From contig NZ_AZVB01000014.1 of assembly GCF_000513995.1 (NCBI RefSeq), positions 1 to 64,000 of the forward strand: a stretch of 64,000 nt of DNA. The letters are read 5' to 3'. This DNA comes from Pseudoxanthomonas sp. J35. GTDB lineage: Bacteria > Pseudomonadota > Gammaproteobacteria > Xanthomonadales > Xanthomonadaceae. Of the stretch, positions 38,582-53,822 are shown one piece after another. The position numbers and the translations under genes were made by a program. The notes under the pieces were generated by a model. The model did no database searches, had not been told where the DNA came from, and worked only from the letters and a program-made list of their open reading frames with translations. Within the stretch, counting starts at the first letter, position 1, and each line of letters opens with the position of its first letter.

Positions 38582-38721
38582 CGCCGCAGGCTGGCGCCGG
38601 CGCCGTGGCGCGGCGGTGAACGGATGAACCCCCGCCCAGCAGCACGCAGGCCGAGCTTGAAGCGGGGCAGGGGCGTCCCTACACTGCAGGGTGTCTGGCG
38701 ATACGCTCGCCCGAAGTTTCC

Positions 38722-39076
<355 letters not shown>

Positions 39077-39082
39077 ATAATG

Positions 39083-39114
39083 AAACCCCAACCGTTCTCG
39101 GTTGGGGTTTTTTC
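39083..39114 (+). terminator. Rho-independent terminator of ssrA
   Basis: AAACCCCAACCG pairs with CGGTTGGGGTTT around TTCT and runs into TTTTTTC. It begins seven bases after the CCA end of tmRNA. Confidence 0.92.
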
Positions 39115-39291
39115 TTGCCTGATCGCGCCGGTTCCCGCGTGTTCTTGGGGGTTCCTGCGGAAGCCTGCGGACTTCGCCGGTCAGCCTCTCAGCCCGTTCC
39201 GGGCCACATTCCACTCTCTCCTGGCCATTCCTCGCTCCGACCTCGCTCCCTGGAAGTTGCCCGAAGTCCGCAAGGGCCACAACTCAGGCCC

Positions 39292-39435
39292 TTACAGATC
39301 AAAGAGTTACGCGCGGACGAATCAAGCGGTTGGATTGCGGCATCGGGTGGCGACGGAAACGCTGCGGGTGCGTTTCGTCGGTCGTTATCGAGCACTACCG
39401 ACAGATTGCAACGCGGAAGTATGTGCCTGGATGGG
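39292..39435 (+). pseudogene. Possible integrase (tyrosine recombinase) N-terminal relic, frameshifted
   Basis: Three consecutive reading-frame pieces look like parts of one N-terminal integrase domain: LQIKELRADESSGWIAASGG in frame 1, then ETLRVRFVGRYR in a second frame, then HYRQIATRKYVPGWG in the third. The order and spacing fit the start of DUF4102-type phage integrases that use ssrA. Two frameshifts and truncation near 39,435 make it dead. The assignment rests on eye comparison only. Confidence 0.35.
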
Positions 39436-39454
39436 GGCCAAGATAAGAAATGCC

Positions 39455-39484
39455 TTGTCAGGACAATGTCCGGACACCTACAAT
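39455..39484 (+). promoter_or_regulatory. Promoter with overlapping operators for the tacA-tacT pair
   Basis: TTGTCA (39455-39460), 18-base spacer and TACAAT (39479-39484). The spacer holds two near-identical 10-base palindromic sites, TGTCAGGACA (39456-39465) and TGTCCGGACA (39468-39477), centred 12 bases apart. Ribbon-helix-helix antitoxins bind such tandem sites, so the downstream DUF1778 protein with its toxin probably represses here. GGAGGGG is the SD, seven bases before the ATG at 39517. Confidence 0.7.
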
Positions 39485-39516
39485 AGAGACATCCAAAATC
39501 CGTCCGGAGGGGCACC

Positions 39517-39795
39517 ATGAGCACCCTGAATCTTTCCAAGACCGAACGCATTGACGTTCGTGCCAGCGCGCCAGTCAAGCAACTGCTGCAGGAAGCCGCA
39601 CGCGCCTGCCACAAGAACGTCAGCGAGTTTCTGCTCGATGCAGGTGTAACGGCGGCCACGCAGACGCTGGCGGATCGTCGCCAGTTCCTACTGGACGAGG
39701 CGCAGTGGCAAGCCTTCCAGGAGGCACTGGACCGCCCGGTGCAAAGCAAGCCGCGTCTGAAAAAATTGCTGCGTGAGCCCGGGGTTCTGGATTGA
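39517..39795 (+). CDS. DUF1778 ribbon-helix-helix antitoxin (TacA-like)
   Basis: A 92-residue antitoxin. The N-terminal RHH (about 5-45) has KTERIDVRASAPVKQLLQEAARACHKNVSEF. The C-terminal tail, with ALDRPVQSKPRLKKLL, is the part expected to wrap the toxin active site, as in TacA. It overlaps the toxin gene by four bases and should autorepress through the operators upstream. Confidence 0.92.
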   Translation: MSTLNLSKTERIDVRASAPVKQLLQEAARACHKNVSEFLLDAGVTAATQTLADRRQFLLDEAQWQAFQEALDRPVQSKPRLKKLLREPGVLD

Positions 39796-40295
39796 GCAGT
39801 GCTTACTCCCCCGTTCGCAAGCTGCTTGCTACGGATCAGGTCGATGCGTTCGACTGCGGTGAGAATGCGCTGAACCAGTTCCTGCAGCGCTACGCGCTCG
39901 TCAACCAGAAGGCCAACAGCGCGCAGACCTACGTTTGCTGCCAGGGTGACGTGGTGGTCGGCTTCTACAGCCTGGCCGTTGGTAGCGTCGATCCGATCGC
40001 TGCACCGTCGAGAGTGATGAAGGGGCTGGCACGCCACCCGGCGCCGGTCATGATCCTGGCCCGGCTCGCCGTGGACAAGGAGCATCAGCGTAAAGGTCTG
40101 GGCCAGGCCTTGCTCAAGGATGCGCTCCTGCGTACCGCACAGGCCGCCGACATCGCCGGCATCCGCTGCCTGTTGGTCCATGCCAAGGACGATGCGGCGC
40201 GGCAGTGGTACGAATCGTGGGAATTCGAGCCCAGCCCGACCGATCCGTACCATCTGTTCCTGATGCTCAAGGATCTCAAGGGCATGTTGAGCTGA
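39792..40295 (+). CDS. GNAT-family tRNA-acetylating toxin (TacT-like)
   Basis: A 167-residue acetyltransferase. The start is TTG 39792 in an ATTGA overlap with the antitoxin stop. Motifs include FDCGENALNQFLQRYA (typical of TacT), VILARLAVDKEHQRKGLGQALL (acetyl-CoA loop Q/RxxGxG/A) and ARQWYESWEFEPSP near the C-terminus, including the catalytic Tyr region. TacT toxins acetylate aminoacyl-tRNA and stop translation. The intact reading frame suggests an active pair. Confidence 0.92.
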   Translation: MSSAYSPVRKLLATDQVDAFDCGENALNQFLQRYALVNQKANSAQTYVCCQGDVVVGFYSLAVGSVDPIAAPSRVMKGLARHPAPVMILARLAVDKEHQRKGLGQALLKDALLRTAQAADIAGIRCLLVHAKDDAARQWYESWEFEPSPTDPYHLFLMLKDLKGMLS

Positions 40296-40310
40296 GGGAG
40301 TGTCTCCACC

Positions 40311-40443
40311 TCAGAGTCCGACTCTCTCCCGCTGCTCATCCCACAGCGCCGGCGGATCAACCGCCAGATCGAACAACGTAATGTGGTTCGGCAGTGCGTC
40401 GTCCAGGATGGCCGTCACGATGTCGGGCGCCAGCGTGGTCAGT
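40311..40443 (-). pseudogene. C-terminal remnant of a serine recombinase
   Basis: A minus-strand frame of 43 codons reads LTTLAPDIVTAILDDALP, then HITLFDLAVDPPALWDEQ, to a TGA at 40311-40313. LAPDIVxAILDG is the usual tail of large serine recombinases linked to DUF2924/DUF3489 genes. A stop (TAA) lies directly upstream, so only the tail survives. Confidence 0.5.
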
Positions 40444-40930
40444 TACCGGTTACCAACCACCGATGATGCAGATCATGGCCACGGGCGCGAACCTTGTCCG
40501 CGCACAGGTTTGCACCGGCGCAGTGGCAGCTGCGCGTATGCGGGCACTGACGCTGGATGGCGCGGGCTCAGGTGGGGCGGTGTGTGCGAACCGCAAACCC
40601 TGCAAACCTTGTTTTCTGGCCAGACGGTAGCGCAATGCTGCGCTCGCGCCCCCCGTATAGAGGAATGGCGGGGAAGGACCCATTTCACCTGTGGCCGTCA
40701 CGAGCCCCGGCAAAACGGTGATCGACGCAAACGCACAAGGACGCGGGCTTGCGGCCGTTTCAACGCTGGATCGCGCTCAATCGGTTAGCGTGGCGCAGCC
40801 TCAGGCCGAAACGGCCGACGTGGGAACTCCAGTGCTGGCACGGGTTTGAGGGCGATCTGCCCCACAAACCCCTGAAATCGGCCACCGTGGGTGCAAGGGC
40901 CTCCAGAAACTGGACACCCTTGGCGGTAGA
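40444..40930. other. 487-bp stretch without a supportable gene
   Basis: It lies between the recombinase tail and the DUF3489 gene, where the body of the recombinase would be expected. Short open frames exist on both strands, but none shows a family pattern or a ribosome-binding site. A 7-bp inverted repeat GGGTTTG/CAAACCC occurs near 40,843-40,878. It is best read as deletion scar and decayed sequence. Confidence 0.5.
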
Positions 40931-41416
40931 TCACACCACCCTGTACACCCGTTCGCCGCTGTCGTTGTGCGCCAGCACCACGTTCAGGCCCAGCTTCTTG
41001 CGCAGCATCCCGGAAATTGCCCCGCGCACGGTGTGGGGCTGCCAGCCGGTGGCCAGCATCAGTTGCAGGCTGGTCGCGCCTTGCGGGCGGCGCAGCGACA
41101 TCACCAGCGCGGCGAGCTTGCTGCCAGGGCGGATCGGGATGCCCTCCAGAAGTTGGAGGTCGTCGGTGGCGTCCATCGGCTGGACGTCATCCGGCGGCAC
41201 GGATCGTTGCTGGCCGATGGCCGCATAGCCCGCGTCGGTCAGCATGTGGCCGCTGTCGGCAGGGTCGATCCACCCGCGCTGCAGCAGTGCGGTCAGCACC
41301 TTGACCCGTGCGCTACCGCGCAGGGTGTCCGGCGGAATCACGCGCCCATCGGCGCGGCGGGCGGCAGTGCGCAGCAGCAGGGCTTGGGCCGGGGAGAGTT
41401 TGGGCAGGGTGTCCAT
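40931..41416 (-). CDS. DUF3489 domain protein
   Basis: A 161-residue protein. The N-terminal half (LSPAQALLLRTAARRADG ... LTALLQRGWI ... LTDAGYAAIG) is a winged-helix-like segment. The C-terminal DUF3489 (about 100-161) has GSKLAALVMSLRRPQGATSLQLM, ATGWQPHTVRGAISGMLRKKLG and GERVYRVV. Such proteins occur with DUF2924 and serine recombinase genes on phage-like elements and may regulate them. ATG 41416 is chosen because GAGGGC lies upstream. Confidence 0.8.
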   Translation of the reverse strand: MDTLPKLSPAQALLLRTAARRADGRVIPPDTLRGSARVKVLTALLQRGWIDPADSGHMLTDAGYAAIGQQRSVPPDDVQPMDATDDLQLLEGIPIRPGSKLAALVMSLRRPQGATSLQLMLATGWQPHTVRGAISGMLRKKLGLNVVLAHNDSGERVYRVV

Positions 41417-41427
41417 CGCTGCCGCCC

Positions 41428-41630
41428 TCACTTGGCCTGACCGTCGAAGATCGCCAGCAGCTCATCCAGCGCCTGGTCCACCCGCCCGAGGTCACCGACT
41501 GGCCCCAGTGGATGGCGTCCGGGGCGTGGCCGAAGTGGTCGTCGGCCAGTTGGCGCAGGGCCTCGATCTTGTCGAGAATCAGCGGCAGGCGCTGCAGGTC
41601 GGTGTCGAGGGCGGTGGGCTGGGTGGTCAT
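41428..41630 (-). pseudogene. Small DUF3489-associated gene with one-base frameshift
   Basis: It starts ATG 41630 with MTTQPTALDTDLQRLPLILDK and continues to DHFGHAPDAIHWG. The coding pattern then moves to another frame with PVGDLGRVDQALDELLAIFDGQAK and TGA at 41428. A single missing base after the TGGGGCCA run (about 41,500) explains the break. An intact version would have about 67 residues. No known fold. It lies 11 bases ahead of DUF3489. Confidence 0.6.
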
Positions 41631-41810
41631 GGCGGTCTCCGGGTTGATTGATGACGCCGCCATTCACGCGCTGAACCACAAGCAAGCCAAGCTAAAGATC
41701 ATGCTCTGGGCATATGGCGCTCGCCGGCCACCCGCCAAACTGATAAATTACACCTTTTGCGATTTAAACCGACTTTATGCCGCCCGAACCGCTTTCGCCG
41801 GAGCATTGCC

Positions 41811-42029
41811 ATGACCGCTGAACCATGGGTATCCGTGGACCAGATTGCCGAGCATCTGGGCGTCACACGCGACTCGATCTACCGCTGGATCGACCGCAAG
41901 CACCTGCCCGCGCACCGCGTGGGTCGGTTGTGGAAGTTCAAAGTGTCCGAGGTGGACGACTGGGTGCGTGCGGGCGGCGCGGATGAAGAACAACGCAGCG
42001 ACGGCCAGACGCCATCGCGCAAAATTTGA
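41811..42029 (+). CDS. AlpA/excisionase-like HTH regulator of the defence operon
   Basis: A 72-residue winged HTH: WVSVDQIAEHLGVTRDSIYRWIDRK, then a wing HRVGRLWKFKVSEVDDWV and a polar tail. It is related in pattern to the tLST HTH protein at 1099 but is not the same protein. GGAGC lies eight bases before ATG 41811. It ends 13 bases before mod, so it is the first gene of the restriction operon. An AT-rich stretch (about 41,740-41,775) precedes it. Confidence 0.85.
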   Translation: MTAEPWVSVDQIAEHLGVTRDSIYRWIDRKHLPAHRVGRLWKFKVSEVDDWVRAGGADEEQRSDGQTPSRKI

Positions 42030-42042
42030 GGGGATGGGCTGA

Positions 42043-43755
42043 ATGCCAACATTGAACTGGATCGGCAAAGAAGCCGTCGTCAAACACCACAAGGATGTGC
42101 CGTTCCGCCTGCTGGAGCCGGTGCCGGAACTCTCCTGCGGTGATGCCAACAGCGGCAACCTCATCGTGCAGGGCGACAACCTGCACGCGCTCAAGGCGTT
42201 GTTGCCCCGCTATGCCGGGCAGGTGAAGTGCATCTACATCGACCCGCCGTACAACACCGGCAACGAGGGCTGGGTGTACAACGACAACGTGAACAGCCCG
42301 GAGATTCGTCGCTGGCTGGGCGAGGTGGTGGGCAAGGAAGGCGAGACGCTGGACCGCCACGACCGCTGGCTGTGCATGATGTACCCGCGGCTGGTGCTGT
42401 TGAAGCAATTCCTCCGTGAGGACGGGGCGATCTTTGTGTCCATCGACGACAACGAGGTCGGCAACCTGCAAGCCTTGATGCGCGAGGTCTTCGGCGCCAC
42501 GAACGAGGTTGCCACCATCGTCTGGGAGAAGGGCAAGAAGGGCGACTCGAAGCTCGTATCGGTCACGCACGAGTACATCGTCGCCTTCGCGCGGAACAAG
42601 GCTCTGCTCAAGGAGCGCAAGGTCCGCTGGCGGCGCAAGAAACCGGGCGTTGACGCCGTGCTGGAGCACTATGAGAGCTTGCGCAAGAAGCACGGTGACG
42701 ACCACACCTCGATTCGCAAGGAAATGATGGCTTGGTACCGCGCCTTGCCCAAGGGTGATCCGCGCAAGGGGCACAAGCACTACAACTGGTCTGACAAGCG
42801 CGGGCTTTACTTCGCGGCGGACTTTGCGGGACCTGATGACGGGCGCGAGAACCGCCCGCGCTATCCGATCCTGCATCCCGTCACCCAGCAGCCCTGCGCC
42901 ATGCCCTCGACTGGCTGGCGGTGGGAAGAGGACACCACGAAAGCGGCGCTGGCTGAGGACCCGCCGCGTATTCACTTCGGCAAGGACCACACGACGATTC
43001 CAAACCGCAAGAGCTACCTCTTCGAGATCGACGAAGAGCCGATGATGAGCGTGTTCTACAAGGACGGGCGCGCGGCCACGCTGGAGGTCGAAGCGATCCT
43101 TGGCGCGGGGGCGTTTCCGTTTCCAAAGGATTCCGAGGTCATTGCCGACCTGGTGGGCATGGTGGTCGAGCCCGGTGACCTCGTGCTCGATAGCTTTGGC
43201 GGCTCCGGCACCACGGCGCACGCGGTGCTCAGGTTGAATCAGTACTTGAAGGAGCCCGTTCGCTTCATCCTTGTCGAACTTGACGACGATGTCGCACGGA
43301 ACAAGACGCGCGAGCGTGTCCGAAAGGCCATCGAGGGCTACACGCCTCTCGTGGGGAAGAAGCGAGTCCCGATCGAAGGCCTCGGCGGCGGCTTCCAGTT
43401 CTGCCGCTTGTCCAAAGAACCCCTGTTCGACGCCGACGGCCAGATCCGCCGCGATGTGACCTTCGCGCAACTGGCCGAATTCGTCTGGTTTGCTGAAACC
43501 GGCACGGGCTTTATCGGCACCGCCGATTCACCGCTGCTGGGCATCCACGAGGGCCGCGCCATTTACCTGCTCTACAACGGCATCCTCAAGGACAAATCTG
43601 TGGGCGGCGGGAATGTACTCACCGGCCCGGTGTTCGATGTGTTGCCCAAGTTCCCAGGCCCCAAAGTGATCTACGCCGCCGCCAACCGCATGGGTGCCCG
43701 CGCCGCACGCGAGGGCATCACCTTCAAGCAAACCCCTTACGCGCTGGAGGTGTAA
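42043..43755 (+). CDS. mod: Type III-like DNA modification methyltransferase (Mod, beta class)
   Basis: A 570-residue N6-adenine or N4-cytosine methyltransferase. The catalytic DPPY (67-70, IYIDPPYNTGNEGW) precedes the SAM motif FGGSGT (385-390, DSFGGSGTTAH), the beta order typical of type III Mod. The target-recognition region between about 165 and 340 is large and includes WRWEEDTT and NRKSYLF segments. The C-terminal domain (about 430-570) has LLGIHEGRAIYLLYNG. It is followed after 5 bases by res. Confidence 0.93.
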   Translation: MPTLNWIGKEAVVKHHKDVPFRLLEPVPELSCGDANSGNLIVQGDNLHALKALLPRYAGQVKCIYIDPPYNTGNEGWVYNDNVNSPEIRRWLGEVVGKEGETLDRHDRWLCMMYPRLVLLKQFLREDGAIFVSIDDNEVGNLQALMREVFGATNEVATIVWEKGKKGDSKLVSVTHEYIVAFARNKALLKERKVRWRRKKPGVDAVLEHYESLRKKHGDDHTSIRKEMMAWYRALPKGDPRKGHKHYNWSDKRGLYFAADFAGPDDGRENRPRYPILHPVTQQPCAMPSTGWRWEEDTTKAALAEDPPRIHFGKDHTTIPNRKSYLFEIDEEPMMSVFYKDGRAATLEVEAILGAGAFPFPKDSEVIADLVGMVVEPGDLVLDSFGGSGTTAHAVLRLNQYLKEPVRFILVELDDDVARNKTRERVRKAIEGYTPLVGKKRVPIEGLGGGFQFCRLSKEPLFDADGQIRRDVTFAQLAEFVWFAETGTGFIGTADSPLLGIHEGRAIYLLYNGILKDKSVGGGNVLTGPVFDVLPKFPGPKVIYAAANRMGARAAREGITFKQTPYALEV

Positions 43756-43760
43756 GCCCC

Positions 43761-46475
43761 ATGAGTTCCCAAATTCGCGGATTCGCACCGAAAATCTATC
43801 AACAGCAAGTGCTCGACAGCGTGGAAGCCTATTTCAAGGCCTGCCACGAACTGCCGTCGCCCTCGATCGCCTTCACCGCCACCACCGAACGCCTGTGGGG
43901 GCGCGGCAACCCCTACAGCCCGCTGTCGGGCTTCCCGGCCGACATGCCGTACTTCTGCCTGCGCGTGCCCACCGGTGGCGGCAAGACCTGGCTGGCTGCC
44001 AAGAGCGTGGCCTTGGTCAACACGCATCTGCTGCGCTGCGAGCACAGCGTGATTCTGTGGCTGGTGCCCAGCAAACCGATCCGCGAGCAGACGCTCAAGG
44101 CGCTGAAGGATCGCAACCACCCCTACCACGCCGCGCTGCGCGAGGCGGGGCCGATCACGGTGCTGGATCTGGAAGAAGCCAAGAGCGTGACCCGCGCCAC
44201 GCTGGACACCTCGACCACGGTGATCGTCGCCACCCGGCAGGCATTTCAGGTGGAAGAGGAGGAGTGCCGCAAGGTGTACCAGTCCAGTGGCGCACTGATG
44301 CACCACTTCGACAACCTGTCGCCCACACAGCGCGATGAATTGCTGACCGATGGCGAGGGCAGCGAGCGCACCACACCGTATTCGCTGGCCAACGTGCTGC
44401 GCCTGCGCCGCCCGTTCGTCGTTGTGGATGAGGCGCACAACAGCCGCACAGAACTGGCCTTCGACATGCTGGCGCGCTTTCGCCCCAGCGGGGTGATGGA
44501 GCTGACCGCCACGCCCGACCTGGAGCGCACGCCCAGCAACGTGCTGCACAGCGTTTCCGCCGCCGAGTTGAAGGCGGAAGAAATGATCAAGCTGCCGGTA
44601 GTGCTGGAAACGGAGCCCAACTGGCAGCAGTGCCTGGCCGATGCCATTGGCCGCCGCGATGCCTTGCAAAAGCTCGCAGACGAAGAACGCCGGGCCGGGG
44701 CGTCTTATCTGCGGCCCATCGTGCTGATTCAGTCCGAACCTCGCCGCGCCGGTATCGAGACGCTGGATTTCGAGAAGGTGAAAAACGAGCTGATCACCAA
44801 CCACGGCATTCCCGCCAGCGAAATCGTGGTGGCTACTGGCGAGGAAAAAGGGCTGGAGCAGATCGATGCCGATTACAAGCTGGGCATTGCCGACCCGGCC
44901 TGCCCGGTGAAGTTCGTCATCACCCAGAAGGCGCTGGCCGAAGGCTGGGACTGCCCGTTTGCCTACATCCTGGTGAGCATGGCCTCGCTGTCATCGGCTA
45001 CGGCGGTGGAGCAGTTGCTGGGGCGCGTGCTGCGGCAGCCCGGTGCCAGCCATCGGCAGGCCCGCGCATTGAATCAGTCTTATGCCTTCGTGGTATCCCG
45101 CAACTTTGCCGAGACAGCTGGCGCACTGCGCGACCGTCTGGTTGCCGGTGCCGGGTTCGAGCGGCGCGAAGTCACCGAGTTCGTTACCGCCGCCAAGGCC
45201 GAGCAGGCACGGCTGGACTTGGAGGGCCACGCCGGGCGCGTGGTCGTTCGGCCCGTGGCGATTACCTTGTCCGAAAAGCCCGACCTTAAAAGCGTGCCGA
45301 AGCCGGTGCGAGACAAGGTGAGCTGGGACGGCAAGCTCAACACGCTGACCATCAGCACGCCGCTCACGGAAGATGAAGCCGAAGTGCTCAAGGCATCGGT
45401 GACTTCGGAAACCGCCGCAGCGGCGATTGTGGAGGCCGCCGAAGTCAGCCGCACCACGGCGATTGAGTTCTTCCAGACGCCCGCCGAATTGGGTGAGCGT
45501 TTTCGGGTGCCACAGTTGGCCTTGCGCGTGCAGGGCGAGCTGGCGCTGTTTGATGATCCGGAGGTGCTGGAGTATCCGTGGGACCTCTCACCCTACGATG
45601 CGGCACCGACGGCCGATGAGCTGAAGGCGCTGGGCGCCGCGCTGAAGGTGTCGGAAGGTGGCGAAATCGACATCGACGAAGGCGGCCACGTGGTGTCGCG
45701 CTTCTTGCCCGAGTTGCAGCGCGATCTTGCCCTCGTCTATCAACCGGAAAACTGGGATGAGGTTCGTCTCGCCACCTGGCTGTGCCGCAACCTGCCCGAG
45801 CCGTCACTGACCCATGCCAGCAAACAGGCCTTTGTCGCGGCGTGGCTGACCGACTTGCTGCGCCGGGATGGTTTCACGCTGGCGCGGGCCAATTTGCAGA
45901 AGTTTCTGATTCGCAATCTGCTGGAGGCGCGCATTCGTGAGCTGCGCAAACAGGCCGTCGGCAGGGCATTCCAACAGACACTGTTCGGTGACGATGCGGC
46001 CACGCGGGTGGCGGTGACCGATCAATACGCCTTTGAGTTTCACGCCCAAGCCTATGCACCGAGCCGCGACTACGACGGGCGCTTTGGGCACTTCGATTTC
46101 CGCAAGCACTTCTATGGGCGGATGGGTGACTTCGACAGCAAGGAAGAATTCGAGTGTGCCTGCCAGTTGGATATGTGGGCGCAGCAGGGCCGCATCCAGT
46201 TCTGGGTGCGCAACCTCGTGCGGCGCGAAGGCAGTTCATTCTTCTTGCAGAAGGCCGATGGCCGCTTCTACCCAGACTTCCTCTGCCAGTTGCCAGGGAC
46301 GGCAGGCCAGCCGGGGCCGGTTCTCGCGGTTGAGTACAAGGGCGCGGATCGATGGAACGAGGCTGAGGATGACCGCTTGATCGGTGGCCTGTGGGCCAAT
46401 CTGTCGCAAAACCGTTGCCGGTTCGTGATGCTCAAGGACAAGCGGTGGGATTGGATTGAGGAGGCGCTGAAGTGA
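43761..46475 (+). CDS. res: Type III restriction helicase-endonuclease (Res-like)
   Basis: A 904-residue superfamily 2 ATPase. Walker A is TGGGKT at 71-76, the DEAH box at 223-226 (VVDEAHNSRT) and motif III TATP at 249-252. Helicase motifs V-VI follow in KALAEGWDCPFA and QLLGRVLRQPGA. A C-terminal PD-(D/E)xK nuclease is visible with PD at 838-839 (RFYPDFLCQ) and E-Y-K at 858-860 (LAVEYKG). It should translocate on DNA and cut unmodified sites together with Mod. The stop overlaps the mcrB start. Confidence 0.93.
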   Translation: MSSQIRGFAPKIYQQQVLDSVEAYFKACHELPSPSIAFTATTERLWGRGNPYSPLSGFPADMPYFCLRVPTGGGKTWLAAKSVALVNTHLLRCEHSVILWLVPSKPIREQTLKALKDRNHPYHAALREAGPITVLDLEEAKSVTRATLDTSTTVIVATRQAFQVEEEECRKVYQSSGALMHHFDNLSPTQRDELLTDGEGSERTTPYSLANVLRLRRPFVVVDEAHNSRTELAFDMLARFRPSGVMELTATPDLERTPSNVLHSVSAAELKAEEMIKLPVVLETEPNWQQCLADAIGRRDALQKLADEERRAGASYLRPIVLIQSEPRRAGIETLDFEKVKNELITNHGIPASEIVVATGEEKGLEQIDADYKLGIADPACPVKFVITQKALAEGWDCPFAYILVSMASLSSATAVEQLLGRVLRQPGASHRQARALNQSYAFVVSRNFAETAGALRDRLVAGAGFERREVTEFVTAAKAEQARLDLEGHAGRVVVRPVAITLSEKPDLKSVPKPVRDKVSWDGKLNTLTISTPLTEDEAEVLKASVTSETAAAAIVEAAEVSRTTAIEFFQTPAELGERFRVPQLALRVQGELALFDDPEVLEYPWDLSPYDAAPTADELKALGAALKVSEGGEIDIDEGGHVVSRFLPELQRDLALVYQPENWDEVRLATWLCRNLPEPSLTHASKQAFVAAWLTDLLRRDGFTLARANLQKFLIRNLLEARIRELRKQAVGRAFQQTLFGDDAATRVAVTDQYAFEFHAQAYAPSRDYDGRFGHFDFRKHFYGRMGDFDSKEEFECACQLDMWAQQGRIQFWVRNLVRREGSSFFLQKADGRFYPDFLCQLPGTAGQPGPVLAVEYKGADRWNEAEDDRLIGGLWANLSQNRCRFVMLKDKRWDWIEEALK

Positions 46476-48982
46476 GCGACTTCCAAGAACAATACGCCCT
46501 GTGGGATGAGTTTCTGACCATCTGGCCCGCCTCGCGGCTGGCCACGATGACGCTGGATGAGTACACCCAGGCCGGCTCGAAGGAGAGCTTCACCTACTGG
46601 ATCGAATCCCGCATGGATGAGATGGGCAGCATCTGGGGCGGCTCGGCGTTCAAATTCGGCGTGTTCTCTCGCAAGGACACCGAGGTGCGCGAGAGTGCGG
46701 AGAGCCGCAGCTATTCGGACACCCACGGCTGGTATTCCGCGCTAGGTGCCACGGCGGAAGAAGCCTTCGAAAAGGTGCGTGGCTACGTCGGGCAGATCGC
46801 AGCCTTGGCTGCGAATGGCGATCTGGACGGTATCGAGGCCTTCGATCATCTGGGCGAAGCCATCAAGTGGAAGATCGCCTTTCACTACCAGAACCGGCAG
46901 CAGCCGGTGATCGTGGACATCTTCAAGCGCGCGCCGCTGGCCGCGTTCACCGGCGGCGCGGCCAGCCAGAGCATGGCCGCCTTGCAGCAGGCCGCGCTGG
47001 CCCAGCGCCCTGAGGGCGTGGGCATTCTGGAATTCGGGCGGCAGGTGTGGGAGGCGTGGAGCCAGAAGAACCTGGCCATCTGGAAGCTTTCCCACGGCAA
47101 CCCACCTAACTTCACCGACGCCGAGCGTCAGCAGTACCTCGATGGCCAGTGGGCGGTGATGCACCGCGACACCGGCAAGGAGCAGGGCAAGAAGTTCGCC
47201 GAAGCGCCGCTGGGCACGCTGTTCTTCCTGTGCCACGGCAACAGCCCTCAGCGCATCGGCCAGTTCACCTCAAACGCCATGCCCTGCGCCAAGGGCGACG
47301 GCTGGCTGCAGCGCAGCTACCGCGTGCTCAAGCCTGCCACGCGCACGGATCGCTACACCGCCAATTCCAAGTACTGGTCACCTCAGGGCAACACCACCTT
47401 CTGGCAGGTGGGCGCAGACGATCTGCCGGAATTCGAATCGACCTTGCTCAAGGAGTACTTCGGCACCGATCTGGCCGAGCTGGCCACCCTGGCGGGCGAG
47501 CCCATCGAGGCCGCCAGCATTGGCACCGGCCTTGCGCCGCCGCCCTCGGTGCCTGCACAGCCCGCCGCCAGCAAGCCAGTCGCCACCTGCATCAACCGCA
47601 TCTACTACGGCCCGCCCGGCACCGGCAAAACCTACACGCTGATGCAACTGCTCAAGCGGGATTACGAGCAGGCGGCGGCCATGATCTCGCCGGAGGAGTG
47701 GCGCAACCAGATCATTGCCGAGAAGATCGCGGTGCTGAAATGGTGGGAGGGCGCGGCCGCCGCGCTGTACGACCTGGGCGGCAAGGCGAAGGTGGCGGAC
47801 ATCGCCGAGCACCGTTTCATCCAGGCCATCACGGCGGCCAACGGCTCCAACCGCAACGTCCGGCAAACGCTGTGGCGCACCCTGCAGAACCACACGGTGG
47901 ACGAATCCATCACCGTGAAGATGAAAAAGCGCCTGAGCCCCGCCGTGTTCGACAAGGCGGCCGATTCGGTGTGGCAGTTTGCCGGAGACTGGCGCGACGA
48001 CTGCGCCGATCTGATTGCGTTGGTCGATCAGCTCAAGCGTGGCCAGCAGGACGCCGGTGCGGTGCAGCGCTACAGCTTTGTCACCTTCCACCAGTCCTAC
48101 GGCTACGAGGAGTTCGTCGAAGGGCTGCGCCCCATACTGGCGGGCGATGCGGACGCGGGCGAAGTGGCCTACGAAATCCGCCCCGGCGCGTTCAAGGAGC
48201 TGTGCCGCAAGGCGCGGCAAGCTCCCGACCAGCGCTTTGCGATGGTGATCGACGAGATCAACCGGGGCAACATCAGCAAAATCTTCGGTGAGCTGATCAC
48301 CCTGATCGAGGCCGACAAGCGCGACCCGTTGGACGGCAGCGCGCCGCCGGTGGAAGTGGTCTTGGCGTATTCCGGCGAGAAGTTCTCGGTGCCCGCCAAC
48401 GTGGACATCATCGGTACGATGAATACGGCGGATCGCTCACTCGCATTGCTGGACACGGCGCTGCGCCGCCGCTTCGACTTCGTGCCGCTACTGCCTGACA
48501 CCCGTGAAGAGAAAGATGCGGATGACCCGCACAGCGCGCCCTTGGCGGGCTTGGTGGTCACCACATCAATCGGCGCGATTGACGTGCGCCAGATGCTGGA
48601 GCGCATCAACGAGCGCATCGAAGCCCTGTACGACCGCGATCACTGCATCGGCCACGCCTATCTCACAACACTGGCGGATGTGGATGATGGCGAGGCCCGC
48701 TTTGAAAAATTGGCCGACATCTTCCGCGATCGCATCGTGCCTTTGCTGGAGGAGTACTTCTTTGAAGATTGGCGCAAGATTCGGCTGGTACTGGGCGACA
48801 ACCAGAAGCCCCAAGCGGCCCAGTTCATCACCGAGAGCGATGCTCACGAACAGGACTTGAATGACTTGTTCGGCAACGACCACGGCCTGGACAGCTACGC
48901 CACCCAGCGGCGCTATCAATCGCAGCCGTCGGCATTTGCTAACCCCGCCGCGTACCGTGGCATCTACCTGTCCTTGGCTTGA
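46472..48982 (+). CDS. mcrB: McrB-like GTP/ATP-dependent restriction motor
   Basis: A protein of 836 residues. GTG 46472 overlaps the res stop (GTGA). The AAA+ motor has Walker A GPPGTGKT at 380-387, Walker B MVIDEINRGN at about 591-600 and the McrB signature GTMNTADRSLALLDTALRRRF. FVTFHQSYGYEEFVEGLRP (about 536-554) is typical of McrB. The long N-terminal half (1-350) includes ESRMDEMGSIWGGSAFKFG and a GTLFFLCHGN...IGQF region resembling EVE/PUA-like modified-base readers. That last point is inference. Confidence 0.92.
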   Translation: MSDFQEQYALWDEFLTIWPASRLATMTLDEYTQAGSKESFTYWIESRMDEMGSIWGGSAFKFGVFSRKDTEVRESAESRSYSDTHGWYSALGATAEEAFEKVRGYVGQIAALAANGDLDGIEAFDHLGEAIKWKIAFHYQNRQQPVIVDIFKRAPLAAFTGGAASQSMAALQQAALAQRPEGVGILEFGRQVWEAWSQKNLAIWKLSHGNPPNFTDAERQQYLDGQWAVMHRDTGKEQGKKFAEAPLGTLFFLCHGNSPQRIGQFTSNAMPCAKGDGWLQRSYRVLKPATRTDRYTANSKYWSPQGNTTFWQVGADDLPEFESTLLKEYFGTDLAELATLAGEPIEAASIGTGLAPPPSVPAQPAASKPVATCINRIYYGPPGTGKTYTLMQLLKRDYEQAAAMISPEEWRNQIIAEKIAVLKWWEGAAAALYDLGGKAKVADIAEHRFIQAITAANGSNRNVRQTLWRTLQNHTVDESITVKMKKRLSPAVFDKAADSVWQFAGDWRDDCADLIALVDQLKRGQQDAGAVQRYSFVTFHQSYGYEEFVEGLRPILAGDADAGEVAYEIRPGAFKELCRKARQAPDQRFAMVIDEINRGNISKIFGELITLIEADKRDPLDGSAPPVEVVLAYSGEKFSVPANVDIIGTMNTADRSLALLDTALRRRFDFVPLLPDTREEKDADDPHSAPLAGLVVTTSIGAIDVRQMLERINERIEALYDRDHCIGHAYLTTLADVDDGEARFEKLADIFRDRIVPLLEEYFFEDWRKIRLVLGDNQKPQAAQFITESDAHEQDLNDLFGNDHGLDSYATQRRYQSQPSAFANPAAYRGIYLSLA

Positions 48983-48995
48983 GGGGTGGATCACA

Positions 48996-50387
48996 ATGTC
49001 AGGCACCACGATCTACGAATTTGATGCGCTGGCCGCAGATGCCCCCGGCGTATCCGATGCCGTAGGCCTGCGCTCGGTGCCTCAGTCGGTGTTTGCCTGG
49101 CTGGAATCCCTGGCCCTGAGCCTAGCCGAAGCGGGCGAAACCGCGTGGCTGAAACTGTCTCAACGGCGAGGTCGACGGGCCGTGCAGGTGGCCAGTTTCG
49201 TGGGGGTGATTCGGGCACCGGATGGGTATCAGATCGAGGTACTACCCAAAGTCGCCAAGGCCATCGGCGGCGGGGATGATGAGGCGCGTGAGCTGCTGAT
49301 CGAAATGCTTCGTTGCCTGGGCGGTTTTCGTCATATCCAGTCCGACAGTGCCAAGCTGGTGGCCACCCGCATGCCGTTGCTCGAGGTGTTCATCGGAGAG
49401 TTCCTGCGCGCCGTGGAGCATCTAGTCAAACGCGGCCTGCGCAGTGATTACAACCTGCAGCAAGACAACCTGTTTGCCTTGCGCGGCAAGTTGCAGATGG
49501 CAACGCACCTGCGACGCAACCTCTGTCGCCGTGATCGCTTCTTTGCGGAGTTCGACGAGTTTTCTCCTGACCGGCCAGAAAACCGTCTGTTGCACGCGGC
49601 ATTGCGACGCGCGCTGGCTTGGACTGCCTCGCAGACCAATCAGCAACTGGCACGCGAGTTGTGCTTTGTGTTTGCTGAGATACCAGCATCACAGCATCCC
49701 GCAATGGACTTCCAGCGGGTTCGTCTGGATCGCGGCATGGCGCATTACGACGCGGCCCTTGCGTGGGCTCGCTTAATTCTGGAGGACGAATCACCACTCA
49801 CTGGGGCCGGCGGCCATCGTGCGCCATCCCTGCTGTTCCCGATGGAGGCGGTGTTCGAAGCCTTCGTCGCCAAACACCTTGCCCGGCAACTTGGGCAGGG
49901 GTTCACTCTGCGCACTCAGGCGCACACCCTGTCGCTGGTCAGGCATCTTGAGAAGGATTGGTTCCGTCTCAAACCCGATTTGCTAGTGCAGGAATCGAAG
50001 GTGAATCGTTTGGTACTGGACACCAAATGGAAGCTGATCGACGGCCAGCAGGCCACGGGTTCGGAAAAGTACGGGTTGGATCAAGGGGACTTTTATCAGC
50101 TCCACGCCTACGGCCAAAACTATCTCGACGGCGTTGGTGATGTGGTGTTGATCTACCCGAAGACGGATGCTTTCAGCAAGGCACTGCCGGTGTTCGAATT
50201 TCCGAAATCGTCAGGACTGCGGGTGTGGGTGTTGCCGTTCTGCCTTAAGCAGAAGCGATTGCAGTTGCCGTCGTGCGGCAGTCTGAATGTGTTTTTCGTG
50301 GATGCGGAGACCGCCGATTCAGTTGTTCGAAAAGTTCGAATACCTGCCTCCGTGGACAGATTTCAAACAGTGACAAGCAGTAGTTGA
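48996..50387 (+). CDS. mcrC: McrC family nuclease subunit
   Basis: A 463-residue partner of McrB. The N-terminal part has ASFVGVIRAPDGYQIEVLPKV, typical of McrC finger/linker domains. The C-terminal PD-(D/E)xK nuclease shows PD at 327-328 (FRLKPDLLVQ) and D-T-K at 342-344 (LDTKWK), followed by a conserved QLHAYG helix. ATG 48996 follows GAGGGGTGG. It begins 13 bases after mcrB and ends one base before the DUF6155-like gene. Confidence 0.92.
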   Translation: MSGTTIYEFDALAADAPGVSDAVGLRSVPQSVFAWLESLALSLAEAGETAWLKLSQRRGRRAVQVASFVGVIRAPDGYQIEVLPKVAKAIGGGDDEARELLIEMLRCLGGFRHIQSDSAKLVATRMPLLEVFIGEFLRAVEHLVKRGLRSDYNLQQDNLFALRGKLQMATHLRRNLCRRDRFFAEFDEFSPDRPENRLLHAALRRALAWTASQTNQQLARELCFVFAEIPASQHPAMDFQRVRLDRGMAHYDAALAWARLILEDESPLTGAGGHRAPSLLFPMEAVFEAFVAKHLARQLGQGFTLRTQAHTLSLVRHLEKDWFRLKPDLLVQESKVNRLVLDTKWKLIDGQQATGSEKYGLDQGDFYQLHAYGQNYLDGVGDVVLIYPKTDAFSKALPVFEFPKSSGLRVWVLPFCLKQKRLQLPSCGSLNVFFVDAETADSVVRKVRIPASVDRFQTVTSSS

Positions 50388-50388
50388 A

Positions 50389-50952
50389 ATGGCGACGAAG
50401 AAAACCACCAAGTCCACACCCAGCTGGAGCGACGTCAAATCCAAGCTGGCCGATTTCGACCGCGCGGGCCTGCTTGGCTTGGTGCAAGACCTGTACACAG
50501 CCAGCAAGGACAACAAGGCCTTTCTGCACGCCCGCTTTGGTCTGGGCGATGATCCGCTGGAACCCTACAAGGCCATCATCACGCAGTGGATCAATCCGTC
50601 CGACTATCGCAAGCCGCAATCGGTGGCCAAGGCAAAAAAAGCCATCAGCGATTACAAGAAGGCCCTGGGCCTGCCCGAGGGCCTGGCCGAACTCACCGTG
50701 TTCTATTGCGAAGAGGTGTTCGACTTCCTGGCCGGATGCGGCATGGACGACGAAAGCTTTTACGATGCGCTGGTGCGGATGTTCGAGCAGGCACTGAAAT
50801 ATGTGCTGGCCTTGCCCACCGCGCAGCAGGCCACATTCATTGCCAGGTTGGACCGGGTGCGCCAACTGGGGCAGGACGTCGGCTGGGGCGTGGGCGATGA
50901 CTTCGACCATTTCTGGTCGGAAGAGGGTCTGGTGATGCATCGTGATCAATGA
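50389..50952 (+). CDS. DUF6155-like protein, last gene of the defence operon
   Basis: A 187-residue soluble helical protein. The start SWSDVKSKLADFDRAGLLGLVQDLY and the KAKKAISDYKKALG segment resemble DUF6155. The second half has ELTVFYCEEVFDFLAGCGM and DALVRMFEQALKYVL. The function is unknown. Spacing of one base after mcrC shows it is co-translated and probably part of the defence unit. No SD other than the mcrC end itself is needed. Confidence 0.65.
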   Translation: MATKKTTKSTPSWSDVKSKLADFDRAGLLGLVQDLYTASKDNKAFLHARFGLGDDPLEPYKAIITQWINPSDYRKPQSVAKAKKAISDYKKALGLPEGLAELTVFYCEEVFDFLAGCGMDDESFYDALVRMFEQALKYVLALPTAQQATFIARLDRVRQLGQDVGWGVGDDFDHFWSEEGLVMHRDQ

Positions 50953-50959
50953 AAGACAT

Positions 50960-50998
50960 CTTTAATTCTTGCTATTCAAATTAAAGAATGCTTTAATT
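50960..50998 (+). promoter_or_regulatory. Fic-gene operator: three CTTTAATT copies
   Basis: CTTTAATT (50960-50967) and AATTAAAG (50979-50986) form an inverted repeat. A third copy CTTTAATT (50991-50998) follows. The 75-base gap is far more AT-rich than its surroundings and ends 30 bases before the Fic start. The Fic protein carries a C-terminal winged-helix-like segment that could bind here. Confidence 0.65.
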
Positions 50999-51027
50999 TG
51001 ATCGCGATCTACTAAAGACAGCTTTCA

Positions 51028-52179
51028 ATGACACGCACCACCGGGACCTATTCAATTGCCACGACACTGGGTGAATCGGTGCGCGCATTCGTGCCCCACG
51101 CCTTGCCGCCGTCTGACCCTGCCCTCTCACCCGAGGTGTTCACTGACCTCAATCGGCTGGCAGAACTCGCGCTTGCACGTTTGGCGGGCGTGTCTGGCTT
51201 GGTGCCTTCGGTCGATTGGCTCTTGTACAGCGCCATCCGCAAGGAAGCCCTGCTCACATCGCAGATTGAGGGTACGCAGGCCACGCTGACCGATCTGTTC
51301 GACGAGGAAGCTGGCTTCAAGGTCAGCAACACCGACGACGTGGAAGAAGTGATCAACTACCTGCGCGCTTTCCGCTGGACGCAGGAGCAACTGCGCGATC
51401 CGAAAGGGCTGCCCATTAGCGTACGGCTGTTGTGCGAGGCACATCGACGCCTGCTGGATGGGGCTCGCGGCGCAGGCAAACAACCCGGGGAGTTGCGTCG
51501 GTCGCAAAACTGGATTGGTGGCACACGGCCCGGCAATGCGGTTTTCGTGCCACCGCCGCCGGAGCACGTTTCAACCCTGCTGGCCGACATGGAGCGCTTC
51601 ATCCACGACGAAGCGACGGACCTGCCACCGATGGTCAAGGTGGCGCTCATCCACGCGCAGTTTGAAACCATCCATCCGTTTCTTGACGGCAACGGGCGCA
51701 TTGGCCGCCTCCTGATCGCGGCGCTGTTTGAACACTGGGGGCTGCTGTCGGAGCCTTTGATGTACCTCAGCGGCTACCTCAAACAACACCAAGCTGAGTA
51801 CTACCGTCGCCTGTCGGCCATCCGCACGGAGGGCGACTGGGAATCCTGGGTGACTTTCTTTCTGGAAGGTGTCGCCACCGCTGCGAGCGACGCCGAAAAA
51901 AACATTATCGAGGTCGCCAGTCTTGTGGCCACCGACCGCCGACGCCTTTTGCAATCTGCCAAAGCAGGCCCGGCCAGCTACCGGCTGTTCGAAATGCTAC
52001 CTATGATGCCGCGCTTCACCATCGAACGCGTTCGCCAGCAACTCGATACCAGTTTCCCTACGGCGACGGCGGCGGTCAAGGTGCTGGAAGAGTTGGGCAT
52101 CGTGACGGAAATGACCGGGCAGAAGAAAAACCGGAGTTACAGTTACCAGGCCTACATTGAACTGCTCTCTCGGCAATAA
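51028..52179 (+). CDS. Fic family protein (class II, self-inhibited AMPylase type)
   Basis: A protein of 383 residues. The catalytic motif HPFLDGNGRIGR is at 216-227. The N-terminal inhibitory helix has TSQIEG at 77-82, matching the (S/T)xxxE(G/N) motif of class II Fic enzymes. The C-terminal 60 residues (FTIERVRQQLDTSFPTATAA ... LEELGIVTEMTG) form a winged helix. These enzymes transfer AMP to target proteins or themselves; the target is unknown. It has its own promoter region and is not in the McrBC operon. Confidence 0.92.
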   Translation: MTRTTGTYSIATTLGESVRAFVPHALPPSDPALSPEVFTDLNRLAELALARLAGVSGLVPSVDWLLYSAIRKEALLTSQIEGTQATLTDLFDEEAGFKVSNTDDVEEVINYLRAFRWTQEQLRDPKGLPISVRLLCEAHRRLLDGARGAGKQPGELRRSQNWIGGTRPGNAVFVPPPPEHVSTLLADMERFIHDEATDLPPMVKVALIHAQFETIHPFLDGNGRIGRLLIAALFEHWGLLSEPLMYLSGYLKQHQAEYYRRLSAIRTEGDWESWVTFFLEGVATAASDAEKNIIEVASLVATDRRRLLQSAKAGPASYRLFEMLPMMPRFTIERVRQQLDTSFPTATAAVKVLEELGIVTEMTGQKKNRSYSYQAYIELLSRQ

Positions 52180-52275
52180 ACACCCGCAAACCCGCAACAC
52201 CCCGCGCCAGTGCTCATAAGCTCGGGAGGCCAGTCAGCACATGGTCAACCGTCCGCCACCAATGCCGCAACGACG

Positions 52276-52304
52276 AAAGGCCGGGAGCGATCCCGGCCTT
52301 TTTC
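52276..52304. terminator. Bidirectional rho-independent terminator at the island edge
   Basis: AAAGGCCGGGA (52276-52286) and TCCCGGCCTTTTT pair around GCGA. It serves the minus-strand DUF2188-like gene ending at 52326 and could also stop plus-strand transcription. Just before it (about 52,257-52,264) is CCACCAAT, the same 8 bases as the tmRNA end plus two, so this may be the original ssrA terminator displaced by the island. Confidence 0.8.
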
Positions 52305-52325
52305 GTGTGCGTGTTCCTGCGCCGA

Positions 52326-52541
52326 TCACGGAAACGAGGCGACCAGCTCCAGTTCGCCGGCTTCGTTCTCGGCCTCGATCCGGGTCGGGATGTAGCGCAG
52401 GCCGGCGCGGGAATCGGCGATGACGCGGGCGATGGCCATGGCCTGCTCGCGTTCCAGGAACCAGAACGACGGCTTGCCGTTGTCGATCAGGCGCCAGCCG
52501 CCATGGGATACGACCAGTTGCAGGGTACTGCTGCTGTGCAT
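52326..52541 (-). CDS. DUF2188-like small protein
   Basis: A 71-residue protein: MHSSSTLQLVVSHGGWRLIDNG, then FWFLEREQAMAIARVIADS and an acidic end ENEAGELELVASFP. The pattern (strand, GGW, strand, helix) resembles DUF2188. The function is unknown. The in-frame start at 52616 would add unrelated residues; ATG 52541 has GGAGGTCGCCACCG upstream. Confidence 0.65.
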   Translation of the reverse strand: MHSSSTLQLVVSHGGWRLIDNGKPSFWFLEREQAMAIARVIADSRAGLRYIPTRIEAENEAGELELVASFP

Positions 52542-52701
52542 CGGTGGCGACCTCCGTTGAAAGTTCCCCGGCCCGGCATCCTGCCGGCGACCTTGTCCGT
52601 TGCAGAGCGGTTCCATGTCAATCGTGCAAGCCGTTCTGCCGGGGCCCCGTTAGCTTGCTCGGCGGGAAGGTCAGGGGACAGTCGGCCAACGGCTCGGCCT
52701 G

Positions 52702-52721
52702 GCGTAGGAAAATTCCTACGC
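52702..52721. repeat. 9-bp inverted repeat in the gap upstream of the DUF2188-like gene
   Basis: GCGTAGGAA and TTCCTACGC are separated by AA. The site lies in a 295-base gene-free stretch (52542-52836), about 160 bases upstream of the minus-strand small gene and 115 bases past the smpB end. No other gene is visible in the gap. It could be an operator; too AT-poor and U-free to be a terminator. Confidence 0.6.
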
Positions 52722-52836
52722 AGGCATGCGTGGCCGGAACCGCGAGCCGGGCGCGTTCGTGTACACGCGGGGCCTCCCCGCGGCGTGGCGCAGGCGTGGG
52801 ATCGGCGGAAAGGGGCGATGCGCGGGGAAAGCGGAA

Positions 52837-53346
52837 TCAGGCGTCCTTGTTGTGCCGGCGCATGGCGCGCTGCTTCTCGCGCTGCCAGTCGCGTTCCTTG
52901 GCGGTGTCGCGCTTGTCGTGTTCCTTCTTGCCCTTGGCCAGGGCGATCTCGACCTTGACCTTGTTGCCGCTCCAGTACATCGCGGTGGGCACCAGGGTGT
53001 AGCCGTCGCGCTGCACGCGGCCGATCAGCTTGTCGATCTCGTGACGGTGCAGCAGCAGCTTGCGCGTGCGCCGGTCGTTGGCGATGACATGGGTCGAGGC
53101 CTGGATCAGCGGGGTGATCTGCGCGCCGACCAGGTAGATCTCGCCGTCCTCGACGTAGGCGTAGCCGTCGGTGAGGTTGGCGCGTCCGGCACGGATCGCC
53201 TTCACCTCCCAGCCCTGCAGCGCCAGCCCGGCCTCGACCCGTTCGACCAGGTGGTACTCGTGCCGCGCGCGCTTGTTCAGGGCGATGGTGCGGTTGGCCG
53301 GCTCGCGCCGGGCCTTTGCCTTATCATTGGACGGCTTCTTGCTCAT
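52837..53346 (-). CDS. smpB: SsrA-binding protein SmpB
   Basis: A 169-residue partner of tmRNA in trans-translation. The OB fold has [29 protein letters not shown] and [13 protein letters not shown]. The basic C-terminal tail [15 protein letters not shown]-like sequence reaches into the ribosomal mRNA channel. ATG 53346 starts [11 protein letters not shown]; it is divergent from ratA with a 45-base gap. Confidence 0.97.
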
Positions 53347-53391
53347 TCCGCCATTGTCGCCCAATCCGGGCTTCCGGACACGCTCCACCCC

Positions 53392-53820
53392 ATGCCCAGC
53401 ATCCACCGCAGCGCCCTCGTCGCGCACCCGTCATCGCGCATGTTCGACCTGGTGAACGACGTGGCGGCCTATCCGCGGCGCTTTTCCTGGTGCGAACAGG
53501 CGCAGGTCCTGGAGCAGGGCGAGGACCGCATGGTCGCGCGCCTGGATCTGGGTCTGGGCTCGCTGCGGACCTGGTTCACCACCGAGAACCGGCTGGTGCG
53601 GCCCACGCGGATCGACATGCAGCTGCGCGACGGGCCATTCCGCCGCCTGCACGGGGTGTGGGAGTTCCATGCGCTGGACGAGTCGGCGTGCAAGGTCTCG
53701 CTGACCCTGGACTTCGAGGCGAACTCGCGCCTGCTCGGGCCGGTGTTCGCGCTGGGCATGCAGGGGCTGGCCGACCGCATGGTCGACGACTTCGTGCGCG
53801 TGGCCGACCGCGAGGCCTGA
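53392..53820 (+). CDS. ratA: RatA/PasT-type START-domain protein
   Basis: A 142-residue protein with a START/SRPBCC fold. It begins [24 protein letters not shown], has [15 protein letters not shown] and ends [12 protein letters not shown]. It is related to E. coli RatA (ribosome association) and to coenzyme Q-binding Coq10. It forms the conserved smpB-ratA-rnfH cluster, with rnfH starting two bases after its stop. Confidence 0.93.
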
Positions 53821-53822
53821 GC

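Follow-up and report, generated by a model that had tools for sequence, protein, structure and literature searches.

A 64,000-nucleotide stretch of Pseudoxanthomonas sp. J35 (positions 1 to 64,000 of contig NZ_AZVB01000014.1; hereafter the window) carries, at 41811–50952, six co-directional genes encoding a helix-turn-helix (HTH) protein, the type III restriction-modification (RM) proteins Mod and Res, the McrBC subunits McrB and McrC, and a DUF6155-like protein. Across related loci the HTH gene and the mcrB-mcrC pair form a constant frame, and the RM block between them is exchanged as a unit. The arrangement is probably an operon, carried by a mobile island, for two layers of restriction, with an exchangeable RM cassette in front and a second layer, McrBC, that would act independently of it; the genes are presumably co-expressed. 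A sequence-only reading of the same DNA had already proposed a composite type III and McrBC operon, working either as one machine or as a layered defence, with the DUF6155-like protein as a possible new component.

Gene content of the operon

The gaps between the six genes are exactly 13, 5, −4, 13 and 1 bases, and the coordinates of the open reading frames (ORFs) agree in this with the sequence-only reading. All genes lie on the plus strand. The AlpA/excisionase-type HTH protein at the head (41811–42029; HTH_17, PF12728, 60 bits) is followed by Mod, a type III adenine-type methyltransferase (MTase; 42043–43755; PDLC03644, 728 bits over its whole length, residues 1–569), and by the helicase-nuclease Res (43761–46475; PDLC03650, 403 bits, and PF04851). 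The gene for the McrB GTPase (46472–48982; AAA_5, with McrB chains in the PDB as relatives) has a GTG start and overlaps the end of res by 4 bases. The nuclease subunit McrC (48996–50387; PF10117 McrBC, 329 bits) is the only McrC-family match in the genome.

The motifs DPPY and FGGSG were found in Mod, GGGKT, DEAH, TATP and a C-terminal PD-x(n)-ExK in Res, the GTPase motifs (Walker A, Walker B and NxxD, present as NTAD) in McrB, and PD-x(n)-DTK in McrC. The analysis checked their presence alone, and we take them to be the catalytic motifs; the earlier statement that all catalytic motifs are intact holds in the sense of presence. A Mod with DPPY/FxGxG motifs and a variable target region thus adjoins a Res with a superfamily 2 (SF2) helicase and PD-ExK nuclease, the gene make-up of a type III RM system, and an McrB with GTPase motifs is followed by an McrC with PF10117 and PD-(D/E)xK, that of McrBC. 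Type III RM enzymes need two unmodified inverted sites for cutting and place N6-methyladenine on one strand.

The RM block between HTH and mcrB is exchanged as a unit

A search for McrC in genome contigs (84,980 species according to the description of the collection) returned 12 loci. The order HTH-Mod-Res-McrB-McrC recurs in four other loci, which bears out the earlier claim of a composite type III and McrBC operon and shows it to be recurrent: L056 from a Burkholderiaceae metagenome-assembled genome (MAG), L058 from an Alphaproteobacteria MAG, L061 from a Sulfuricellaceae MAG and L066 from a MAG labelled Edaphobacter, where MAG labels are possibly wrong and the contig ends of L066 cut HTH and McrC. 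A further locus, L080, has HTH-Mod-Res followed by a truncated McrB and lacks McrC. In L056, L058, L061 and L066, Res is 90–96% and McrB 73–88% identical to the proteins of the window.

The region preceding mcrB was compared in 14 other loci whose McrB N-terminal half is at least 60% identical to that of the window over the part present (L055, L056, L057, L058, L060, L061, L066, L080, L081, L082, L096, L102, L103/L105 and L106). Left out were loci in which the N-terminal half was not seen (L059, L062), those with another McrB N-terminus (L063–L065, L107–L109) and those 28–34% identical over the whole half (L083, L084, L097–L101). The upstream count was made without L103/L105 (n = 13), since its contig opens with the first codon of mcrB and the gene is apparently split by a phage; the two McrB parts (L103 1–1005 and L105 8481–9974) lie on that single contig, and the break, near residue 333, seems due to a phage whose genes look Mu-like by eye.

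An RM module lies directly upstream of mcrB in nine of these 13 loci, and HTH is present in all nine. The module is a type III Mod-Res pair in five (L056, L058, L061, L066, L080), an HSDR_N/N6-MTase fusion with an S subunit in two (L057 and L096, the MTase and S assignment in L096 coming from ORF likeness and position), and a fused type IIG enzyme in two (L081, and L102 with an enzyme 81% identical to that of L081). No RM module was seen upstream of mcrB in the other four: the HTH gene stands alone in L060, only the last 39 res codons are present in L055, McrB is degenerate in L082, and phage-like genes lie alongside in L106. HTH homologues head L056, L057, L058, L060, L061, L080, L081, L096, L102 and, as a partial gene at the contig edge, L066; HTH is the constant head of the operon and a probable regulator.

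In the window the cassette spans 41995–46471 (no strand assigned), with an approximate left edge (41971–41994) and the mcrB start codon as its right edge. Homology by blastn ends at 41971–41994, the 3' end of the HTH gene, in L057, L060, L081, L096 and L102, and returns at 46473 in all of these but L102, where it already returns at 46459, that is 13 bases ahead of mcrB. The overlap of stop and start codons (GTGA or ATGA) where mcrB begins, for which the sequence-only reading had suggested searching, was recovered in part: it is present in the window, L055 (on the res remnant), L056, L057, L080 and L096, and absent from L058, L060, L061, L066, L081 and L102. In the McrC tree the window groups with L055, L056 and L057 (92/99), with L102 and L096 as the nearest neighbours (86/96), a grouping that mixes type III, MTase plus S and IIG cassettes. 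The L056–L057 pair in this tree is weak (80/47), 9 of its 22 inner branches are open, its outgroup branches are long, and it does not contain L080 and L081, which have no McrC. Variation extends to the operon's 3' end, since the gene following McrC differs among loci: it encodes a Schlafen-AlbA_2 protein in L056 (11230–12921) and L058 (11371–12921), and RhuM in L060 (11374–12039) and L061 (11405–12490).

Beyond the counted loci, RM genes were found near part of the more distant relatives. Among McrC relatives with another McrB N-terminus, type I systems precede in L063 and L064 (HsdM and HsdR by Pfam, in L064 also a YgjP-like protein; other subunits by ORF likeness), and on the phage contigs L108, L109 and partly L107 the McrC relatives follow type I systems; none was seen before the McrC relative of L065. 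Phage tail-like genes (by eye) adjoin McrBC in L106, where it stands alone, and in L107–L109, where it comes after the type I system. Of the seven distant N-terminal relatives, L099 and L100 have RM-like genes and L098 weakly so, L083 has a helicase resembling Res, together with a weak match to Mod, about 8–10 kb upstream, and the search found no such genes in L084, L097 and L101. A sequence search with the operon's RM proteins found no RM genes in seven loci with other McrB proteins (L048–L054), a thin background control that would miss distant RM families and in which L049 is a short contig. In one of these seven, L048 (9029–17291), a related HTH (57% identical) precedes a distant McrB-McrC by about 5.4 kb; judged by eye, the intervening stretch holds a transposase and genes resembling helicases and nucleases.

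This type of McrBC is rare. At E 1e-40 McrB matched 9 of 369 genomes of the class, its own included, with one other close protein (G258, 72% identical). The McrB N-terminal half matched 8 of 378 genomes of its own order (again counting its own), most of them distant, and, at E 1e-20, 8 of 399 genomes in the order of G432, two of which were already known; viral contigs searched with this half gave L102 and others. The small order around G208 yielded no match in eight genomes and, having no positive control, carries no weight.

As a control, relatives of Mod (E 1e-60) were located in ten other genomes of the class sample. Neither McrB nor McrC was seen beside them (0/10; stretches of 13–20 kb, some shortened by contig ends), and Mod-Res can thus do without McrBC. 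The refuting condition named in the sequence-only reading, two halves that always separate, holds in part: the halves do occur apart, but one and the same junction unites them time and again. Separability would also be expected of passive co-residence, in which RM and McrBC gather in a defence island where insertions survive and have no functional link. The position of the island in a variable interval and the damaged McrB proteins of L080, L081 and L096 (both described below) fit this explanation as well. Conversely, several cassette types have been exchanged at the same junctions under the same HTH head, and the GTGA/ATGA overlap at the mcrB start occurs in type III and MTase plus S loci alike, though not in L058, L061, L066, L081 and L102. 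We regard mere co-residence as rather unlikely.

McrB does not follow the target region of Mod

McrB is divided here into two N-terminal domains, NTD1 (residues 1–145) and NTD2 (about 146–365), and a GTPase part from about residue 366. Divergence of Mod and McrB was compared over the 15 pairs formed by the window, L056, L058, L061, L066 and L080. Mod residues 186–350, presumed to be the variable target-recognition region, are 3–27% identical in 14 of the 15 pairs and 60% identical in one (L056–L061); the flanks of Mod are 64–89% and Res is 86–99% identical. Over the same pairs McrB 1–145 is 74–93% and McrB 146–365 is 59–96% identical. An McrB that shared the site of Mod should vary with Mod and does not, which argues that McrBC probably acts at a site other than Mod's. 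The occurrence of the same McrBC in RM-less form (L060, L106) agrees with this decoupling and speaks against cutting of unmodified sites, subject to the caveat on RM-less loci given in the Discussion. The comparison favours an independent self/non-self rule for McrBC, which would most simply be recognition of modified DNA.

These data bear directly on a rival in which the operon is a single machine of the LlaJI kind, McrB-McrC being an RM nuclease that works with Mod on an unmodified site protected by the neighbouring MTase. LlaJI from Lactococcus has two 5-methylcytosine (m5C) MTases, and passages of PMC1459862 and PMC12707154 describe its McrB-like R1 as alone setting the specificity that is shared with them; the McrB/McrC-like subunits act there on an unmodified site beside their own MTases (PMC1459862, in part). 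The likeness extends to gene arrangement: in LlaJI too, as PMC1459862 outlines, the genes for methyltransferases point the same way as those for the McrB-like and McrC-like proteins. Relatives of McrB NTD1 also stand beside m5C-MTase-like genes (by eye) in L144, L145, L146, L148 and L149, and McrB 146–365 does vary somewhat (59–67% in L058). In the present operon, however, the MTase is of type III and McrB does not track its target region: the McrB N-terminal region stays 59–96% identical while Mod 186–350 falls to 3–27% in all pairs but one of the 15. Moreover, McrB of this one type comes after type III, MTase plus S or IIG modules, or after none. A specificity of McrB shared with the neighbouring MTase was not found by this comparison of Mod and McrB, which is an indirect one, and LlaJI-type coupling was rejected as unsupported; a single machine appears very unlikely. 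Of the two options left by the sequence-only reading, the layered one is supported and the fixed machine is not, as 10 of 10 other Mod relatives lack McrBC, McrB is found with other RM modules or none, and it does not follow Mod.

The N-terminal region of McrB

NTD1 resembles the N-terminus of PD-T4-1 (PADLOC; 46 bits for the window protein, 60 bits for L098 and 67 bits for L097). It also occurs in McrB proteins of the viral contigs L144–L149, and one or two m5C-MTase-like genes (by eye) lie just upstream in five of the six (L144, L145, L146, L148 and L149; not L147). On these similarities NTD1 is a recurrent module of several McrB proteins and a PD-T4-1-like protein. The latter is a protein of 337 amino acids encoded by the viral-collection contig L143 (3282–4295), with NTD1 at its N-terminus and a possible PD-(D/E)xK C-terminus, the last seen by eye.

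A structure model of McrB 1–365 from eight sequences reached a predicted local distance difference test (pLDDT) score of 37. For NTD1 alone, modelled from 18 sequences, the best of five models reached 85.5 and the others 55–70. NTD2 is possibly PUA/EVE-like, as judged by eye.

The DUF6155-like gene and TOTE

The last gene of the operon (50389–50952) scores 20.1 bits against DUF6155 (PF19652), for which the gathering score is 27; the label given to it earlier is a fair description of likeness, and membership in the family was not reached. A TOTE primase-helicase gene comes after its closest plasmid relatives (57–59% identical) in L002, L004 and L005, and the same gene follows in six of seven close relatives of at least 53% identity (L002, L004, L005, L040, L061, L159). 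In the seventh, L003, also on a plasmid, only 35 TOTE residues follow. PF22548 (AEP-TOTE) was confirmed in L002, L040 and L061; the L040 locus has a Mod-Res pair and no McrBC. The distant relatives in L006–L009 (30–48% identical) gave no TOTE match.

The association is one-sided. TOTE matched in 33 of 350 genomes of the class, and among TOTE loci fetched from 18 of these 33 a DUF6155-like partner was present in one. The genome studied here gave no TOTE match, and the TOTE protein of L061 has no significant match in the window. Of L056, L058 and L061, L061 alone has a DUF6155-like gene after McrC, and there it precedes TOTE; L066 ends inside McrC and L080 is without McrC, and neither shows the stretch in question. 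The proposal that the gene is a new component of the system was abandoned on these grounds, namely six of seven close relatives before TOTE and one of three type III and McrBC loci with the gene. It is best read, from its relatives, as an orphan homologue of TOTE-partner genes and not as a core part of the operon.

Two further arrangements involve TOTE. On the viral-collection contig L102 (5988–16260), HTH, type IIG enzyme, McrB, McrC and TOTE follow in a row, with no DUF6155-like gene between McrC and TOTE. In L171 (1376–8999) a Mod-Res pair (34–37% identical) adjoins a TOTE gene, with no McrBC.

A genomic island between ssrA and smpB

The operon lies on a genomic island at 39117–52322 (no strand assigned), reaching from ssrA (38722–39076) to the DUF1508-smpB side and delimited by an alignment gap to L128. 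This locus, from the closest sampled relative in the same genus (ssrA 99% identical), aligns with window positions 38511–39116 and 52323–53892 only and has 230 bases of its own sequence in place of the island of about 13.2 kb. The GC content is 0.62 in the operon, 0.67 in the window left of the ssrA start and 0.71 to the right of 52326. The surroundings of ssrA were fetched for 12 of 16 relatives of the same genus carrying it. smpB lies at most 3.6 kb downstream of ssrA in seven of the 12 (L128–L131, L133, L134, L138), was not found within the fetched stretch in four (L132, L136, L137, L139), and in L135 is present only as a fragment on the other side of ssrA. The ssrA-smpB interval is thus variable. 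A search for island attachment repeats found no exact direct repeat of 12–40 bases between 38701–39300 and 50901–53100.

Several other genes share the island. A DUF3489 gene (40931–41431, minus strand; PF11994, 75.7 bits) diverges from the operon; homologues of 31–89% identity are present in six of 25 loci searched (L056, L080, L061, L058, L102, L096) and were not found in L057, L060, L081 or the six included loci with Mod-Res only. The gene is a frequent companion upstream of HTH, in divergent orientation. At the ssrA end, a TacAT-like pair (39517–40295) consists of TacA1 (92 bits) and a GNAT acetyltransferase; a pair 92% identical lies near the TOTE gene of L162. A Fic-family gene (51028–52179; PADLOC SoFic, 377 bits, motif HPFLDGNGR) is located directly 3' of the DUF6155-like gene.

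Discussion

In the two-layer interpretation, the first layer would be an ordinary type III RM system: Mod would put an adenine-type mark on host sites, and Mod-Res would cleave DNA bearing unmodified sites. As second layer, McrBC would load via the McrB N-terminal region on a feature other than Mod's site, most likely a modified cytosine or another modified base used by phages against the first layer, and would then cleave together with McrC by GTP-driven translocation. The HTH head and McrBC tail would stay, and the RM cassette between them would be swapped as a block. A precedent for a modification-based system and a type IV enzyme as complementary layers is the BREX and BrxU pair, as set out in parts of PMC8565348.

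Several points weigh against this interpretation. McrB 146–365 of L058 is only 59–67% identical to the others, and this region may change its own specificity. The genome of RM-less L060 has a Mod-Res pair on another contig (L085), and host MTases elsewhere were not searched for, so that RM-less McrBC may still have a cognate MTase. McrB 1–365 matched no Pfam domain even at E 10, DUF3578 included, its N-terminal region gave no convincing sequence match in the PDB, and the NTD1 model returned nothing at E < 0.001 from Foldseek against the PDB. NTD1 need not be a modification reader, as it is also present in McrB proteins beside m5C-MTase-like genes, as in LlaJI. McrB is damaged in three of the nine RM-linked loci: in L080 it ends near residue 432, in L081 genes that look by eye like transposases come after it, and in L096 it is broken. 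Neither L080 nor L081 showed an McrC. Scans of the window for promoters and terminators gave no excess over shuffled sequence.

A different function for the same genes would be epigenetic policing, in which McrBC, rather than serving as backup against modified phages, kills cells or invaders that bring in a competing methyltransferase and so guards the island together with its methylation identity. Nothing in the window tells policing apart from layered defence. When five McrBC homologues from archaea and Deinococcus were each combined with four MTases in E. coli at 37 °C, no combination killed the cells, according to a part of PMC2614495, and we consider policing unlikely. A bolder extension of the two-layer interpretation takes the HTH-McrBC frame as a general docking site and McrBC as a shared fail-safe effector, whose expression HTH would raise when the RM system in front is saturated, blocked or lost, one backup nuclease serving many first-line systems. 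This extension seems to us distinctly unlikely.

The immigration control region of E. coli K-12 has the order hsd-mcrBC-mrr. McrBC beside an RM system is thus common to both arrangements; here the RM system is of type III, an HTH gene heads the operon and the RM genes are swapped between HTH and mcrB, and the operon's McrB lacks DUF3578 or any other Pfam domain in residues 1–365. The methylation-associated defence system (MADS) offers a further comparison: the operon HTH resembles MAD1 (64 bits), below the cut-off of 80, and Mod-Res and McrBC take the place of the other mad genes. No mad2–mad8 neighbours appeared among the matches listed for ten window proteins (for Mod, the 25 best of its 34 families). 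In L057 the MTase matches mad2 at 162 bits and the S subunit matches mad5 at 64 bits, scores that fall well short of those with their best type I models. The island of pEFER with BREX and BrxU, a GmrSD type IV enzyme, joins methylation-based defence to a type IV enzyme (PMC8565348, in part), a pairing to which the present operon would correspond with McrBC for GmrSD and type III RM for BREX.

Linkage of McrBC with RM is already in print. Sections of PMC11090510 report that, in the branch to which the McrBC of E. coli K-12 belongs, McrBC and type I RM genes are neighbours that mostly share one orientation, and they note a surprising link of McrBC to predicted MTases; a part of PMC2614495 describes frequent linkage of mcrBC to RM systems or MTases and, in some cases, its insertion into a complex of RM genes. 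Mod/Res is among the figure abbreviations for CoCoNuT superoperons (PMC11090510), and type III genes near an McrBC relative have therefore been published. Sibley and Raleigh 2004, cited in PMC12707154, names cassette-like variation of restriction genes in its title. The HTH-[Mod-Res]-McrBC frame was not found among the titles and abstract openings listed by literature searches, and it may have been described nonetheless. What seems new is the HTH/McrBC frame with the RM block exchanged at the mcrB start.

A general linkage of McrBC with RM is thereby turned into a testable frame, in which HTH and McrBC are constant, the RM block is exchanged and the junction lies at the mcrB start. The frame also draws attention to McrB NTD1, present in several McrB proteins and a PD-T4-1-like protein. 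If the layers are functional, the first line would be swapped and the second kept, which would explain how such islands change specificity fast.

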